Below are positions 5,437 through 47,012 of a stretch of DNA of 64,000 bases, piece after piece. Origin of the DNA: a virus. The position numbers were made by a program, and so were the translations under genes. The stretch covers positions 1-64,000 of the IMG/VR virus record IMGVR_UViG_3300042691_025267. The stretch is one strand, 5' to 3'. The notes beneath the pieces are model-generated. The model saw only the letters and a list, made by a program, of their open reading frames with translations, ran no database searches and was not told the origin of the DNA. Positions within the stretch are counted from its first letter, which is position 1. Every line of letters starts with the position of its first letter.

Positions 5437-5874
5437 TTAATAGTAATCTACAACTACTCCGGCTTCCCGAAACATAATCACACTTCGTTCAGCATGTTCA
5501 CTCCATTTACTACTCATTGCATCATCGTCGTCTTCTATGATAATTCGTCGGATCCCAGCGTTAATAATCCCACGAGCGCAATCAGCACAAGGCATTCCAC
5601 AAGTAAGATACATTGTGCAATCTTTCGTAGACACCCCAATACGAGCTGCGTTATAAATTGCATTACGTTCTGCGTGTTCAAACCAATAATACTTTTCAGG
5701 TCGTTCTTGTCGTGCGTCAACACCATCATGTATACCTCGTGGGAAGGAATTATATCCCGTGGATACAATTTCGTTATCTTTGCCAACGATTACCGCTCCA
5801 ATCTTGGTGTACTTATCTTTTGATTTCAGTTTGACTTGTTGTACGATATTGCGAAAATAATCTTTCCAGTTCAT
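5437..5874 (-). CDS. cd: dCMP deaminase
   Basis: Zinc-dependent deoxycytidylate deaminase (145 aa) that converts dCMP to dUMP for thymidylate synthesis. The zinc site is clear: HAERNA (His-Ala-Glu, ligand and catalytic Glu) and PCADCARGII (two Cys ligands). The nucleotide end has the typical KIGAVIVGKDNEIVSTGYN opening. T4-like phages usually carry this enzyme. It sits between the TonB receptor gene (4 bp gap) and the sugar transferase, away from the other nucleotide-metabolism genes at 18-22 kb. Confidence 0.93.
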   Translation of the reverse strand: MNWKDYFRNIVQQVKLKSKDKYTKIGAVIVGKDNEIVSTGYNSFPRGIHDGVDARQERPEKYYWFEHAERNAIYNAARIGVSTKDCTMYLTCGMPCADCARGIINAGIRRIIIEDDDDAMSSKWSEHAERSVIMFREAGVVVDYY

Positions 5875-5878
5875 AATA

Positions 5879-8566
5879 TTAGTTTGCTAATGAAACTCCC
5901 AATGAAATCATTCGTCCCACGTTATATCCTTCACGTTCCAAGTTCCCCTGCATGAACCGATAGCGTGCGTCAAGTATATTACGAACATCCATCTTCAAGT
6001 TTGCCCGTTGAGTGATCGGTGCTTTGATTGTAACATCTACCATATGACGGGCCTTCTCCACAATGTTTGGAAGTGGAAGAACACCGGCGGCAAATATTCT
6101 GTCACCTACCGTGTTATACAATATGGTTGCATTGGTGCGTCCACTCAACGATGAATAGGTGACCCCCATGTTTACCACATACGGTGCTTGACCAACTAAT
6201 GCCCGTTTACTATCCGTGACCGTTAATCCTCTGGTCGTATCTAATTGCACCGTGGAACTCATCACCGTAATATTACTAAAGACGGTGAGGAAAGTCAAGA
6301 CCTGCTTTCGTCCTTCTAATTCAATACCAATATTATCAGCCATTAATGCGTTCTGGAAATTGGCTTGATAGGCGCCAGAGGTTGCTTGTTCTACTCGTTC
6401 AATCGGATCAATAAATTGTTTGGCAAATAATCCAATACTGAAGATTTCATTTGGGTTCGGAAAGTGTTCATATCGGACATCTATATTATTAATTAATCCC
6501 CGACGCAATTTATTATTGCCCGTCACACTTACTCCACCCAACACATCACGGAACGTCACGGGTGCCAACTCACGATATTCTGGACGAGTGACGGTACGAG
6601 ACACCGCAAACCGTAGATTGGTATTATCTGTAAATCGTGTATTGAGCAGAAGTGCTGGTAACACATCAAAGTTGCGTAGATTGGATTCCACCGTAAATCC
6701 ACCTTGTGTTGATGTATTCACATTGATGTCTGCATATTCTGCCCGTCCACCCACAATCATTTTGATATGGTCTGCGAACTGCCATTCCGTCATGACATAT
6801 CCTGCCGTATTCACATCCGTTGCCGTATATGATCCTGCTTGACCAATCGGTTGGACATTGATGGTGTTACACGTTGGACATGCTTGATCCTTACCAAAGA
6901 TAACGTCGGCAGGTTGTGTGGTAACTGTTTGGTTTGCACGAGTGATGAATGCGTAAATCGGTGCTTGGGTATTTCGTTCTGTATTTCGGTAATAGGTTCC
7001 CACCTTTACATTATGTTTATTATTAATGGTCAGTGTGTGATCCAATTGCCCCACGAGATTTTCTTCGTTTAAATCAAAATACAACCGACGAGCCCCATCT
7101 AATGAACCCAACAAGGAATATCCAATTTCTGGATTCCGTGCATACACGACATCAGAGCGGTCAGGTTCACGACGGGACGTATGTGCAGTTGTCAATGACC
7201 ATGACGTTTTATTATTGGTAGAGAGTTGATGATCCCCTTGCCCCGTGATAGAGACAACACCACGCTCGACATATCGTAAGGTGGTACGACGAATACTGTC
7301 CGCAAGGTTTTCATCATATCCCGCATCCACACGGGCTTCATTGTCGGCGTTTCTCGTAAAGGTACTGTTCAATGATACACGGGACATTTGCCCAATCATC
7401 GTGGAGAGATTTGCGATACCACCCCATTGTACACCCACTCGGGCTGTTTGTCCATTCAAGGATGTTAAGGGAACCACGGTATTATTTGGTCCTTGATTAC
7501 CTACGGCAAACTGTTCGTTACTTCTTACTTCTTCACTGTATCCATAGTTTCCACTGAACACATATCCCACATTCTTTCCCAATACTTTATTGCCACCCGC
7601 CGACATACCCAACGAACTATTCCCACGACCACTACGATACTGTGGTGCCCAGACATTCCGTTGAGAACGAATGATGTTATTCATCTGTTCTTGCGTGACA
7701 GATCCCAAGAAGTTTGCCGTTGCTAAATCCGTAGGCATGTTTCGTGATGCACCTGCCACTGCAATCAACTCACCACCGGCGCGAGGAGCAAAGGGTAATG
7801 TATTACTGATAACCCGACTGTTTGCCCCAACACTCATGGAATAGTTTACTTGCTTTCGTGCGGGAAACTCTTTCGTCTTAATGTTCACCGTGGCACCAGC
7901 AAAGTCGCCGGGTTGGTCTGGAGTAAAGGTCTTACTGGTACTGACTTCTTGCAACAAACTAGACGGGAATAAATCCAGTGGAACCACCTTTCGTTCGGGT
8001 TCTGGACTTGGGAGACGAACACCATTCAAGTTTGCTGTGGTGTATCGTTCACTCAACCCACGTACTTGTAGGTACTTGCCATCTTGTACCGTGACACCAC
8101 TAATACGTTGTGCCGCTTGTGCTGCATCTCCGTCTGGTGAACGAGAGATTTGTTCTGCGGTAACTGCGTTCGTCACATTGGTAGCATTCTTCTGTGCATT
8201 CAAGGCGGAATTGATACTACCGTTTTCTTTTACTGCTGTGACACTCACGGTGGAGAGTTGCACGTTGGCTACTTTCATTACGATGTCTTGTTCTACCACA
8301 CCATTTGCAGGAACAATAATACCCGTAATCGTCTTTGGCGTATATCCAATACGACGGACTTGAATAGTAGTCGTACCAGCAACCGTTTGTAACCGATATC
8401 GTCCATCCACCCCAGACATCACGCCTGTAGTGGTTCCGACGACTTGAATACCGACACTTGTCAATCCTTGACCAGTTGCTTCATCAAGTACTCTACCAAC
8501 AATTTGTCCCGTTTGGGCAAATACCGACGAAAACGGGACAAACAACGCCAACAAAATTTTTCTCAT
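5879..8566 (-). CDS. TonB-dependent outer-membrane receptor
   Basis: Full-length 895-aa TonB-dependent transporter, not expected in a phage. Order: signal peptide (cleavage likely after SSVFA, residue 17); a carboxypeptidase-regulatory-like beta domain (about 20-100; IVGRVLDEATGQGL, DGRYRLQ, VRRIGYTPKT); a TonB-box-like stretch LSTVSVTAV; the plug domain (about 125-250; LQVRGLSERYTTANLNGVRL, PGDFAGATVNIKT); then a barrel of about 640 residues with alternating strands. It ends in SLGVSLAN, without the C-terminal Phe normal for barrels. No frameshift or stop. The VRRIGY style is like Gemmatimonadota/Bacteroidota receptors. It has its own candidate late promoter. Substrate unknown. A nutrient-uptake, receptor-decoy or superinfection role is inference. 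Confidence 0.92.
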   Translation of the reverse strand: MRKILLALFVPFSSVFAQTGQIVGRVLDEATGQGLTSVGIQVVGTTTGVMSGVDGRYRLQTVAGTTTIQVRRIGYTPKTITGIIVPANGVVEQDIVMKVANVQLSTVSVTAVKENGSINSALNAQKNATNVTNAVTAEQISRSPDGDAAQAAQRISGVTVQDGKYLQVRGLSERYTTANLNGVRLPSPEPERKVVPLDLFPSSLLQEVSTSKTFTPDQPGDFAGATVNIKTKEFPARKQVNYSMSVGANSRVISNTLPFAPRAGGELIAVAGASRNMPTDLATANFLGSVTQEQMNNIIRSQRNVWAPQYRSGRGNSSLGMSAGGNKVLGKNVGYVFSGNYGYSEEVRSNEQFAVGNQGPNNTVVPLTSLNGQTARVGVQWGGIANLSTMIGQMSRVSLNSTFTRNADNEARVDAGYDENLADSIRRTTLRYVERGVVSITGQGDHQLSTNNKTSWSLTTAHTSRREPDRSDVVYARNPEIGYSLLGSLDGARRLYFDLNEENLVGQLDHTLTINNKHNVKVGTYYRNTERNTQAPIYAFITRANQTVTTQPADVIFGKDQACPTCNTINVQPIGQAGSYTATDVNTAGYVMTEWQFADHIKMIVGGRAEYADINVNTSTQGGFTVESNLRNFDVLPALLLNTRFTDNTNLRFAVSRTVTRPEYRELAPVTFRDVLGGVSVTGNNKLRRGLINNIDVRYEHFPNPNEIFSIGLFAKQFIDPIERVEQATSGAYQANFQNALMADNIGIELEGRKQVLTFLTVFSNITVMSSTVQLDTTRGLTVTDSKRALVGQAPYVVNMGVTYSSLSGRTNATILYNTVGDRIFAAGVLPLPNIVEKARHMVDVTIKAPITQRANLKMDVRNILDARYRFMQGNLEREGYNVGRMISLGVSLAN

Positions 8567-8592
8567 ACAATTGTTCTCAATAAGGGTCAGAC

Positions 8593-8602
8593 TATAAATA
8601 TC
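8593..8602 (-). promoter_or_regulatory. candidate late promoter (GATATTTATA) for the TonB receptor gene
   Basis: Minus-strand GATATTTATA, identical to the plus-strand site at 2703-2712 and 26 bp upstream of the receptor ATG. It overlaps the stop codon region of gp62. It suggests the receptor is expressed late and separately from the replication genes. No good sigma70-like -35 lies 17 bp upstream. Confidence 0.5.
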
Positions 8603-9077
8603 ACAATTTAGCCTTCTTCAAGGTTTTACTATCTATACCATAATTCTTACACAACATAATCAACGCATCTTTATTATGTGTGTAGTAAATTTCCAAATAC
8701 TGGATTGCTTCTACTTTAGATACGCTAAAATGTTTTGCTACAAGGTCTACCAACCACGATTCATACTTTTCATCTTTACTACCTTTAATATATTTGTTAT
8801 ACTGCTTCCCTTTCGGGAGCATACTTGTCAGAAACAAATAATGCGCCCGATCAGGAATAGCAGAATATTTTTGTACTGCATTAACGACTTGTGCATAGTT
8901 GACGTTCATAGAAAGAAACCGATGCATCATATAACGAGAATTCTTATATTTCTTTTTCTCCGCATCATTTAGATTATCAAAGAAATCAGTAGATTGATCA
9001 GTGGTGATCCCACTCAAAAAATCAAATAGTTCTTTTCCTTTATTTGTTTCTTCGGTTTGTACTTTCTTTTTAGGCAT
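8601..9077 (-). CDS. 62: clamp-loader small subunit (gp62-like)
   Basis: 158-aa protein matching the small clamp-loader subunit of T4-like phages, which with gp44 loads the gp45 clamp. The family look is a short N-terminal region (LFDFLSGITTDQ), then YMMHRFLSMN, a conserved YLFLTSMLPKGKQYNKYIKG block and a C-terminal helical part with EAIQYLEIYYTHNKDAL. Small size and position downstream of gp45 and gp44 agree with the T4 order 45-44-62. The ATG overlaps the ClpP stop codon (TAATG). The assignment is by motif recognition and synteny; sequence divergence from T4 is high. Confidence 0.8.
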   Translation of the reverse strand: MPKKKVQTEETNKGKELFDFLSGITTDQSTDFFDNLNDAEKKKYKNSRYMMHRFLSMNVNYAQVVNAVQKYSAIPDRAHYLFLTSMLPKGKQYNKYIKGSKDEKYESWLVDLVAKHFSVSKVEAIQYLEIYYTHNKDALIMLCKNYGIDSKTLKKAKL

Positions 9078-9670
9078 TATCGTAGCATCTTTACTTGGTC
9101 AACTAAATTATATTCCTTTGCTTCATCGGCACTCAACCAGACATCTTGCGGAGGAAGTAACTTTTCACGAATCATTTTCTCACTCAACTTGGTACACTTC
9201 TTATAATGAGCAATCATACGTTTCGTTGTCAAGTCAAACTGTTTCTGACTTGCCACCAGTTCATGTTCCTTTCCAAAAGTACCTGCTGACCACTGGTGAG
9301 ACAGGATACTGGTGTTCGGAGTAATGATACGACTCCCAGGCTCTCCGGCAATAAAGGTCATCAATCCAGCACTGGCGATCATACCCAATCCAATCGTATG
9401 AATAGGAATCTTACTTCCTCGCATTACATCAATCAAGGCAAATGCGGAAAATAAATCTCCACCATAGCTGGTAATCATTAACGTCAGACTTTCAAACCGA
9501 TTGGTTGTTTGGAAGTTGTTATCCAAAATCCACGTGATAACATCCTTTGTCGTGTTTGGAGAAAACTCGTTACAGAAATAGTAGACACCGTGATCAGACA
9601 AGGTAGACGGACGATAGTCCTGAATCAAATATCCTTGTAGATCTTGGTTGTTATTATTTGTCTGTAACAT
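9077..9670 (-). CDS. ClpP-like serine protease
   Basis: ClpP-fold endopeptidase (197 aa from the ATG at 9670; an in-frame TTG lies four codons before). Visible: ITSYGGDLFSAFALIDVM (oxyanion Gly-Gly region), GMIASAG with nucleophile Ser100, ILSHQW with His125, and WLSADEAKEYNLVD near the end, which supplies the Asp and the family C-terminal motif. ClpP-like proteins are known in T4-like cyanophages, either as partner of host Clp ATPases or as prohead-type proteases. Here it sits inside the clamp-loader operon, between zinc-ribbon and gp62 genes. Which substrate it cuts is unknown. Confidence 0.88.
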   Translation of the reverse strand: MLQTNNNNQDLQGYLIQDYRPSTLSDHGVYYFCNEFSPNTTKDVITWILDNNFQTTNRFESLTLMITSYGGDLFSAFALIDVMRGSKIPIHTIGLGMIASAGLMTFIAGEPGSRIITPNTSILSHQWSAGTFGKEHELVASQKQFDLTTKRMIAHYKKCTKLSEKMIREKLLPPQDVWLSADEAKEYNLVDQVKMLR

Positions 9671-9671
9671 C

Positions 9672-9941
9672 TTATGACTCAAGCTTCAGACGCGTCTGTG
9701 CAGTTTCTTCCTGAGTTGGTTCCGCAACCTTGATTGGCAGGAACTGCTTATTAATAAATCCACATGCGTTACATGAGAACGTAGGAATTGGAACGATTGC
9801 TTCCTTACCAGTGGGGGAAACGAGAGCTGATACTCTCTTCATCAATACGACCTCTTGGAACGTATAGTTTCCACAATTCTCGCACGTAACATCCTGTGCG
9901 TTAGAAAGGTCAATATTCATTGGTTGCTGTTGTTTTGCCAT
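9672..9941 (-). CDS. small zinc-ribbon protein (89 aa)
   Basis: Contains two CxxC knuckles, CENCGNY and CNACGF, about 40 residues apart, which would bind one zinc as a zinc ribbon. The rest is short and hydrophilic. It starts 11 bp after gp44 and its stop is one base before the ClpP start. Possible roles: an adaptor for ClpP or a transcription or replication co-factor; only position supports this. Confidence 0.75.
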   Translation of the reverse strand: MAKQQQPMNIDLSNAQDVTCENCGNYTFQEVVLMKRVSALVSPTGKEAIVPIPTFSCNACGFINKQFLPIKVAEPTQEETAQTRLKLES

Positions 9942-19840: not shown

Positions 19841-21691
19841 TTAAATTACTTCACATCCACCACCACCGCACGCAACTTCACCAGCCAGATTCGTATCATC
19901 GCCGATTTCTACGACTTGACTTAAATCAATTGCATGTAAGTGGGAAATTAATTCTTCGTACTTCTCCTTTGTGCAGTCTTCAAACGGAGCCTGAACATAC
20001 GAGTGATCAGAATGTGGCAACACCGACAGTGCTGTAAAGTTTTCCTTGTTCGTCCACATCCATTCCCCAACGTCAACCCATTCTCCATCTTTAATAGATA
20101 CGGTAACGGAGACATTGTTTTTGTTCTCACCCTTACGATGTCCTTGCTTCACCCATTCCTTCCACACCTTACTCACACGATGAAGAAGATCTAACGCACT
20201 TTCTTCACGGGTCACAGCACCTTCTGGAGCACGTTGCGGAACACTGATTACTGACTGTTGGTTGGGCTTGAAGTAATCGTCTTCCAAGAGTTCTGGATGA
20301 TTGAACATCAAGTATGAATAAATACTTTCGTTCTTACCCACTCGTACACGACGGATGTAGTAATCGTTATGCCAAGCGTGAATTCCAGAAGAAGTTCCAA
20401 GAACCAGAGAAGAGGTACCTTCGGGTTTTACCGTAGTAGTACGGGCAGCCTTCTTGATGCCGATGATTTCTGCGACTCGTTCGTTTTCCGCCTTCACTAC
20501 GTTCGCTGCTTCCTTCATGTCCAACTTCAGTACTGCACCAGACGCAATGCCGGTCATACTGACGCCAATCAACGCTTCTCGTTCCGTGGTCTTTTTCCAT
20601 ATATCTCTCAAGTAATGAAAGTTCGTGTAACTTGCTTGAAGAGTCCCGATGAAGGCGGCAGCCCGTGCGCGGGCATTCAAATCATCTTGACTATCAACAT
20701 TACCCGCATTGATAGTGGTCAAGTTACAGAATTGAAAGGGACGGAGAGAGATTTCCGCGCACGGGTTTAAGCCCCAACTTGCATCATTCGTGAAAAAGAA
20801 ACCAGGTTCGCCGGATCCACTAAGTTCAATCTTCTTCCACAATTCTAAGAAGACTTCCTTTTCAATCTTATGACGAACAATGACCGCACTGTTATTCGCA
20901 CGGGCACGTTGTGGATTGTTTTCCCACCAGTTACCGAACTTACAGGTGAGCATATCATCATCGTCCAAATCAAACAGAGAGATCATTGCCGAACGACGAA
21001 TACCACCAGACAATACTGCATCAGCAATGTAGCAAAGGATGTCATGGACTTCAATAGATGACAACTGTTCACCACTCTGCTTACGATCAAAGATCTTTTG
21101 GATGTTATGAAGTGCATCCTTGAGTGGTTCTGGACCAGGCGCCTTTCCGCCACTCGTCAACAGTAATGCACCTTTCTGACGAACATCACGGAAATCAAAT
21201 AATGGAAGTGGCTTACCCTTTAAGTATGAGGCAACCAATACCTTCACTGCATCTGCCCATCCTTCAATACTATCACCGACAAGATATCGGCGTGTCTTTG
21301 ATGGTTTGGTGACCTCTGGAAGTTTTTCAATATGCTGACGTTGTACTGAATATCCTACACCTGTTCCCGAAAGAAGAAGGAACATCACTTCACTAAACGC
21401 ATCTGCGTGATCAATAGGTAAGAAGCAACAGTTATATAGACGTGCGTTATTAATTCCAATCGGCTTTCCTGCGAACTGTAATGAACGCATGGATGGAAGA
21501 ATCTTTTTATCGTATACAAATTTATAAGCTGCTTCAATTTCATCTACTAAATGTGGAAACTTTTCCACATGCATTTGTTTATTTCTTGTTACTAACTCGT
21601 CCCACGTTTCTCTTCGTTGTTTTTCTGGTACGTACTTTGCGTACTTCATGAATGTCGTAATGTCTGACAGCAGCTTAGATTCTAACAACAT
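19841..21691 (-). CDS. nrdJ: adenosylcobalamin-dependent (class II) ribonucleotide reductase
   Basis: 616-aa reductase that makes deoxyribonucleotides with a B12-derived radical, so it needs no NrdB subunit or oxygen. Seen: YNCCFLPI and SGTGVGYSVQ near the substrate site, NPCAEISLRPFQFCNLTTIN with the catalytic Cys and Glu, KPEGTSSLV, and the C-terminal GEVACGGGGCEVI whose Cys pair is re-reduced by thioredoxin. The arrangement is that of the monomeric RTPR type, but it is shorter than the Lactobacillus enzyme (739 aa). The phage therefore depends on host cobalamin. Neighbours: thioredoxin downstream, helicase gp41 upstream. Confidence 0.93.
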   Translation of the reverse strand: MLLESKLLSDITTFMKYAKYVPEKQRRETWDELVTRNKQMHVEKFPHLVDEIEAAYKFVYDKKILPSMRSLQFAGKPIGINNARLYNCCFLPIDHADAFSEVMFLLLSGTGVGYSVQRQHIEKLPEVTKPSKTRRYLVGDSIEGWADAVKVLVASYLKGKPLPLFDFRDVRQKGALLLTSGGKAPGPEPLKDALHNIQKIFDRKQSGEQLSSIEVHDILCYIADAVLSGGIRRSAMISLFDLDDDDMLTCKFGNWWENNPQRARANNSAVIVRHKIEKEVFLELWKKIELSGSGEPGFFFTNDASWGLNPCAEISLRPFQFCNLTTINAGNVDSQDDLNARARAAAFIGTLQASYTNFHYLRDIWKKTTEREALIGVSMTGIASGAVLKLDMKEAANVVKAENERVAEIIGIKKAARTTTVKPEGTSSLVLGTSSGIHAWHNDYYIRRVRVGKNESIYSYLMFNHPELLEDDYFKPNQQSVISVPQRAPEGAVTREESALDLLHRVSKVWKEWVKQGHRKGENKNNVSVTVSIKDGEWVDVGEWMWTNKENFTALSVLPHSDHSYVQAPFEDCTKEKYEELISHLHAIDLSQVVEIGDDTNLAGEVACGGGGCEVI

Positions 21692-46238: not shown

Positions 46239-47012
46239 TTATATTCCCATTTGCTTACGAATGTCGGTTGCGCTGATCGCTTCTGTGGACGCGTCCAGAT
46301 TGATTTTCTCCACCTTATAGCCCACATCTCTACCGTAATACACGCCGGTAATGTTTGGTAGGAATATCACTTCAAATTTTCCTTGATATTTGTCATTTAA
46401 TTTTTTATAAATGAAATCAGATACTTCTTCATAATCAAACGGATTCTTTTCATCAATGTTGTGGGTATTGCGGACCCCAATAAGTACCTGTCCTTCTTTT
46501 TCCAGGATGGTTTCAAACAATTTCAAATGACCATCGTGGAATGGCTGGAATCGTCCAATCATCAATCCTGTGGGTGCTTGCCAATCAAATTCTGGAACCG
46601 GCTCCATCTTTTTAGTAAGGCGTGCGATAATCTCGTCAGTTTGTTCACCGACATCACCCCATGCAGTAATTTCCACATCTACTACTTCTGGTCGTTGGAA
46701 TACCTTATTGGTGTCCTCAAACCGACCTTCGTTGATTGTATTCATAAACACGATATAGTCGGGAGCAAACGCATCTCTGGTTTCTTCTAATGGACACACG
46801 AAATCGGCAACTACGTGGTCTGAACTGGCAATATCGGCAAGATGATACATTCTATCCGCCTGTCGGAGCCGTCCTTCTTCACTGAAGTCCCAATCATTAA
46901 ACATCTTACGAACTTCGTCTGCATTAAAATATGCGGCTTTCAACTTCTCTGCCAACACTTTGGAAAGGGTCGTTTTTCCAGACCCCGGTAATCCCATAAC
47001 TAAAATTTTCAT
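46239..47012 (-). CDS. adenylylsulfate (APS) kinase-like / nucleotidyltransferase fusion
   Basis: 257-aa two-domain protein. Residues 1-140: CysC-like P-loop kinase with MGLPGSGKTTLSKVLA, FNADEVRKMFNDWDFSEEGR (the APS-kinase DxxR region) and VADFVCPLEETRDAF. Residues 145-257: HxGH-type nucleotidyltransferase with GLMIGRFQPFHDGHLKLF and the end ISATDIRKQMGI (IS-T-x-R). Kinase alone would make PAPS from APS. The second domain could be ATP-sulfurylase-like (then one protein would make PAPS from sulfate) or a cytidylyl/NMN adenylyltransferase; the GRDVGY stretch slightly recalls GRDHAG of ATP sulfurylase. Three sulfotransferase-like neighbours give the PAPS a use. Confidence 0.82.
   Translation of the reverse strand: MKILVMGLPGSGKTTLSKVLAEKLKAAYFNADEVRKMFNDWDFSEEGRLRQADRMYHLADIASSDHVVADFVCPLEETRDAFAPDYIVFMNTINEGRFEDTNKVFQRPEVVDVEITAWGDVGEQTDEIIARLTKKMEPVPEFDWQAPTGLMIGRFQPFHDGHLKLFETILEKEGQVLIGVRNTHNIDEKNPFDYEEVSDFIYKKLNDKYQGKFEVIFLPNITGVYYGRDVGYKVEKINLDASTEAISATDIRKQMGI

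Follow-up and report, generated by a model that had tools for sequence, protein, structure and literature searches.

A TonB-dependent outer-membrane receptor carried by T4-like phages and its probable link to phosphorus acquisition

Introduction

Why would a phage add to its own genome a class of protein that phages often use as receptors, and how is such cargo traded across phage lineages? Both questions are raised by a T4-like virus in IMG/VR (IMGVR_UViG_3300042691_025267, 80,386 bp), of which we analysed positions 1 to 64,000, here called the window. It encodes a TonB-dependent receptor (TBDT) beside replication genes (Table 1). Phage-borne TBDTs as such are already known: those of the megaphages Mar_Mega_1 and LR745206 were noted in 2021, and carbohydrate uptake was proposed for them (PMC9723777). 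For TBDTs in T4-like phages, their exchange between lineages or a link to phosphorus, we found no report in the open-licence literature.

Results

An intact receptor gene beside gp62

The open reading frame starts with ATG and has no internal stop, and is thus intact. The original prediction, made from the sequence alone, had placed it at 5879-8602; the gene boundary at 5879 and the uninterrupted 895 residues stand, whereas the upper boundary of this minus-strand gene is 8566 and the remainder is the gap upstream of it. The carboxypeptidase-regulatory-like domain, plug and barrel named there are each matched above the Pfam gathering cut-offs (CarboxypepD_reg, Plug and OMP_b-brl_3), so that both hallmarks of the family, an N-terminal plug (PF07715) and a C-terminal barrel (PF14905), are present. 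By eye, VQLSTVSVTA is a plausible TonB box located after the N-terminal domain and ahead of the plug, and in the translations of the phage copies both this candidate box and the predicted signal peptide are kept. The N-terminal domain and its RRIGY motif may recall receptors of Gemmatimonadota. A PHROGs search of the protein returned no family, a profile search of the PDB gave a carboxypeptidase D domain as its sole match, and an AlphaFold model built with four close sequences was uninformative (pLDDT 27.6).

Table 1. Coordinates in the window of the receptor gene, its parts and the neighbouring or related genes
Feature	Position	Strand	Basis
TBDT gene, 895 aa	5879..8566	-	ORF call, Pfam matches, related copies
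Predicted Sec signal peptide, aa 1-18, MRKILLALFVPFSSVFAQ	8513..8566	-	By eye from translation
Carboxypeptidase-regulatory-like N-terminal domain, aa 21-98	8273..8506	-	PF13620 E 1.2e-10, PF13715
Candidate TonB box VQLSTVSVTAVK, aa 102-113	8228..8263	-	By eye, location after N-terminal domain and before plug
Plug domain, aa 126-212	7931..8191	-	PF07715 E 1.7e-9
Beta-barrel, aa 498-877 matched	5936..7075	-	PF14905 OMP_b-brl_3 E 8.2e-19
C-terminal SLAN, no terminal aromatic, Gly retained at -5	5882..5893	-	Full-length phage copies compared
dCMP deaminase, 4 bp downstream of TBDT, right border	5437..5874	-	PF00383, phrog_174
Clamp-loader subunit gp62, 34 bp upstream of TBDT, left border of insertion site	8601..9077	-	PF16790, phrog_225
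Clp-type protease, member of conserved gp44-Clp-gp62 block	9077..9682	-	PF00574, synteny
Adenosylcobalamin-dependent-type ribonucleotide reductase, relevant only to a B12 role	19841..21691	-	TIGR02505 E 3.5e-75, below curated cut-off

The unusual end of the barrel, noted earlier as lacking the C-terminal Phe, is real: the terminal aromatic is missing from all five full-length copies, which end in SLAN, SLNN, SLVN, SVVK and SLAK with Gly at -5. This residue is typical of, and not strictly required for, barrel assembly, and some cellular homologues lack it too. Family searches of both neighbours bear out the location between gp62 and dCMP deaminase, with its 4-bp gap. A late promoter of the gene's own, also proposed, was rejected: the ATAAATA at 8594-8600 is a plus-strand match directed away from the gene, its frequency in the window does not exceed chance expectation, and the sole late-promoter-like match on the coding strand, TATAGATA, has one mismatch and falls within gp62, 63 nt upstream.

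Residence in two T4-like lineages

Two scans of IMG/VR yielded seven further contigs with the receptor, at 85-97% amino acid identity. Together with the window, L002 and L006 form lineage A, where the gene follows gp62. The border with dCMP deaminase recurs in L002, so the arrangement to be looked for in other phages is found there in full, and on the gp62 side in L006, where an inserted GIY-YIG-like endonuclease-like ORF stands between that side and the receptor (L006:9325-9954). An HNH-like ORF lies beside gp44 in the same contig (L006:6996-7850), and both ORFs, recognised by eye, are possible mobility agents.

The other five contigs (L001, L003/L004, L005 and L013) constitute lineage B, a second T4-like lineage with the receptor at a different site, bounded on one side by a PhoH-like ATPase, in some contigs accompanied by a PD-(D/E)XK nuclease, and on the other by a permuted tmRNA. 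The tmRNA border was read in L001, L003/L004 and L013, the analysed part of L005 ending before it; L003 and L004 come from different metagenomes and carry identical receptor genes. This two-piece tmRNA comes just after the receptor (L001:12710-12927 and L003:12697-12886) and encodes the tag GT[FY]N[SA]PLALAA; related phages have tags of other types at this position.

Two findings were named in advance as fatal to the original prediction, a host-phage assembly chimera and homologues in hosts only. The chimera is rejected, since L002 and L006, as independent contigs, show the junctions again; the nearest relatives that were found belong to phages and not to hosts. The gene is resident in phage genomes and is present or absent among close relatives. 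Most of the 16 gp62 loci and 80 PhoH loci surveyed lack it; in L042 and L050 gp62 and dCMP deaminase adjoin directly, and many relatives of lineage B have the tmRNA immediately after the nuclease. L057 shares its metagenome of origin with L001 and encodes an identical PhoH protein, yet has no receptor. A search for CarboxypepD_reg in large related records of 124-182 kb gave no match, and because such records and most surveyed loci are devoid of the gene, we regard it as accessory cargo. Every record searched that carries a TBDT holds a single one. The nearest isolate by DNA polymerase is Microcystis phage Mel-JY01 (44%), which is too remote to point to the host. Short gut records labelled 'Bacteriophage sp.' contain similar TBDTs, are UNVERIFIED scaffolds and were left out of the analysis.

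Other cargo occupies the same sites in related phages. L045 has a carbamoyltransferase-like ORF between gp62 and dCMP deaminase (6459-8051), and at the hotspot of lineage B L068 carries a glycosyltransferase and a calcineurin-type phosphoesterase distantly like LpxH (7444-8881), a pair that, speculatively, recalls phosphorus-sparing lipid remodelling.

Purifying selection and transfer between lineages

The receptor is under strong purifying selection, with dN/dS of 0.03-0.075 among phage copies whose dS reaches saturation, and no hypervariable segment was detected along them. Its third-position GC (0.39) lies within the phage range of 0.25-0.43. A host-type gene found in several phage genomes and maintained by selection, it qualifies as an auxiliary metabolic gene.

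In the tree a long branch leads to a single clade holding all phage copies; within it the lineage-B copy L001 groups as sister with the lineage-A copy L006 (99-100% support). Around the gene, DNA similarity between the window and L001 is limited to the coding sequence, all other matches being to distant island genes. From the sister relationship and the confinement of the DNA match, it follows that the receptor moved between T4-like lineages.

Cellular homologues and their neighbours

In-depth cellular searches covered Bacteroidota, the phylum of an Arenibacter hit, where a strong homologue was found in 130 of the 198 genomes sampled. Identities are about 30-32%, and plasmid matches reach 28% over most of the query. 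The nearest host clade sought by the original prediction is thus approached only at about 32% identity, in Bacteroidota, whereas the substrate class can be addressed through gene neighbourhoods, which point to phosphorus.

At 49 of 55 Bacteroidota loci the next gene downstream encodes a beta-helix secreted protein or lipoprotein, and pst/phoU or ppx genes lie within about 7 kb at 13 of the 55, with PstS, PstC, PstB, PhoU and Ppx confirmed by family models. Six or seven arrangements place pst/phoU genes beside the homologue, and the ppx cases belong to a single clade with six members; at the other 42 loci the stretch read contains no phosphate gene. ExbB/ExbD-like genes were seen by eye near 15 of the 55.

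A published cellular system has the same kind of organization. In Flavobacterium johnsoniae, the phoBR operon includes Fjoh_0545 (pf07715, pf13715 and pf14905) next to Fjoh_0546, a lipoprotein with a pectin-lyase fold; the log2 fold change of Fjoh_0545, 8.0, is seen under phosphate depletion only, not under iron or nitrogen limitation (PMC8115612). Judged by domain description, the phage receptor has the same Pfam set as this phosphate-starvation receptor of the PUS clusters (Plug, CarbopepD_reg_2 and OMP_b-brl_3). Unlike the cellular pair with its phoBR operon, the phage genes have no lipoprotein partner: no beta-helix gene was found in the T4-like loci. Nor was a SusD lipoprotein, the mark of a SusC-type receptor, found beside the phage gene, whose neighbours are gp62 and dCMP deaminase or nuclease and tmRNA, and a search for TonB in 14 phage records found none.

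A related case is the megaphage LR745206. Its TBDT is phage-borne, belongs to the same broad family and aligns over 99% of the query; it differs from the window copy in that it is only about 25% identical to it, resides in a genome of about 635 kb that is not T4-like, and is followed by a beta-helix lipoprotein (L010:13695-17535) homologous to the cellular partner, as beside cellular phosphate-linked TBDTs. The presence of this partner suggests that the published carbohydrate role should be reconsidered.

A second, Oar-like receptor family

A TBDT family unrelated to that of the window, with an Oar-like architecture (CarboxypepD_reg plus PF25183), occurs on 15 contigs, several of which look like repeat samples of one population. 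As in the window family, these receptors (L070, L135-L149) are phage-borne and under purifying selection (dN/dS of 0.05-0.11), and some share the hotspot of lineage B; they differ in the PF25183 barrel, a length of about 1046 aa, a canonical C-terminal Phe and the use of further sites. They are found at the hotspot (L070/L135, L144 and L148; L070:7494-10631), directly after DNA polymerase (L136-L138) and, as observed in L139, after ribonucleotide reductase. A single in-frame TAG is present in the copy of L070/L135; other contigs have intact copies.

The best cellular Oar-like homologue adjoins a PHO4 phosphate transporter, and a type I phosphodiesterase lies near 4 of 16 homologue loci; the transporter and two of the phosphodiesterases were confirmed. 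None of the 16 loci has pst/phoU or ppx nearby. Fjoh_3841, an orphan TBDT with only pf13620, has a log2 value of 7.7 (PMC8115612), and its domain content fits the Oar-like architecture.

Discussion

By comparison with bacterial relatives, the phages probably use the receptor to help the infected cell gather phosphorus. The neighbours of the cellular homologues, the induction of Fjoh_0545 and the neighbours of the Oar-like homologues favour this reading. As a specific proposal, that this accessory receptor, carried among replication genes, would boost the infected cell's import of phosphate or a phosphorus compound, we hold it with moderate confidence, at about an even chance, because the homology is distant and the T4-like phages lack the partner. 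Transfer of substrate by homology is weak at 30-32% identity and across a long phage branch, and we also count against phosphorus that the six ppx cases represent one clade and the pst neighbours a minority, and that no pho-box was recognised.

After infection the gene would be transcribed along with the replication genes around it, and its product would be exported by Sec, placed in the outer membrane by the host assembly machinery and energised by host TonB. It would then increase import of phosphate or a phosphorus-containing compound across the outer membrane, and the phosphorus gained could feed phage DNA synthesis. T4-like cyanophages carry the phosphate-acquisition genes pstS and phoA, likewise auxiliary genes thought to relieve phosphorus limitation in infection; their products work in the periplasm or at the inner membrane, and the receptor may be their counterpart at the outer membrane.

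Import of another scarce nutrient, such as B12 for a class II ribonucleotide reductase, an iron chelate, an oligosaccharide or a peptide, is an unlikely reading that still deserves weight. TBDTs generally import such ligands, carbohydrate uptake was put forward for the megaphage receptors (PMC9723777), the phage encodes a B12-type reductase, and the second family is found immediately after a ribonucleotide reductase gene in L139-type phages. The phosphorus genes near homologues fit less well with this reading, no cobalamin riboswitch or neighbour evidence for B12 was found, no SusD partner lies next to the gene, and Fjoh_0545 responds to phosphate depletion, not to iron or nitrogen limitation. 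Of the earlier proposal of nutrient uptake, a real phage-borne receptor of host-type origin with uptake as its likeliest role remains; B12 or iron as the substrate is not supported, given the sub-threshold TIGR02505 match, the lack of a riboswitch and neighbourhoods that indicate phosphorus.

Phages and colicins commonly use TBDTs as receptors, and the lambdoid phage PA-2 encodes a porin that alters the host surface. The receptor might by the same token replace or compete with that of the host and so block superinfection or, as a decoy, divert competing phages or bacteriocins, and the sharing of one hotspot by two unrelated TBDT families suggests that the receptor class itself is useful. In an arms race, variable loops would be expected of such a surface protein, and dN/dS is low throughout with no diversifying segment; a decoy might stay conserved, and we consider a surface role improbable. 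That the gene is a passenger of little benefit, moved by neighbouring homing endonucleases, would suit its patchy presence and the GIY-YIG-like ORF directly upstream in L006, and is nonetheless very improbable: strong purifying selection across saturated synonymous divergence strongly disfavours it, third-position GC is phage-like, and a second family was acquired in parallel. Loss of the terminal aromatic from all copies could mean unusual assembly and so hint that the receptor is part of the virion or acts in lysis or release rather than transport; the location among replication or nuclease genes, not structural genes, in both lineages, together with an intact predicted signal peptide, plug and candidate TonB box, makes this scarcely credible.

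Returning to phosphorus scavenging, a broader proposal, to which we give somewhat less than an even chance, is that T4-like phages share an exchangeable pool of outer-membrane TonB receptors, in which two unrelated families shuttle between lineages through a few hotspots and change which phosphorus compound enters the cell. Known viral nutrient genes mostly act inside the cell. A receptor installed by a phage would, if the scavenging role is correct, decide which dissolved compounds an infected cell takes up and link lytic infection to phosphorus cycling, and a shared pool would make the outer membrane a viral control point.

Elsewhere in the window, a long island (42481-63635) contains, by eye, SGNH-hydrolase-, carbamoyltransferase-, radical-SAM-, subtilase- and PP-loop-ATPase-like ORFs, and a fused kinase/nicotinamide-nucleotide adenylyltransferase-like protein at 46239-47012 suggests NAD salvage.
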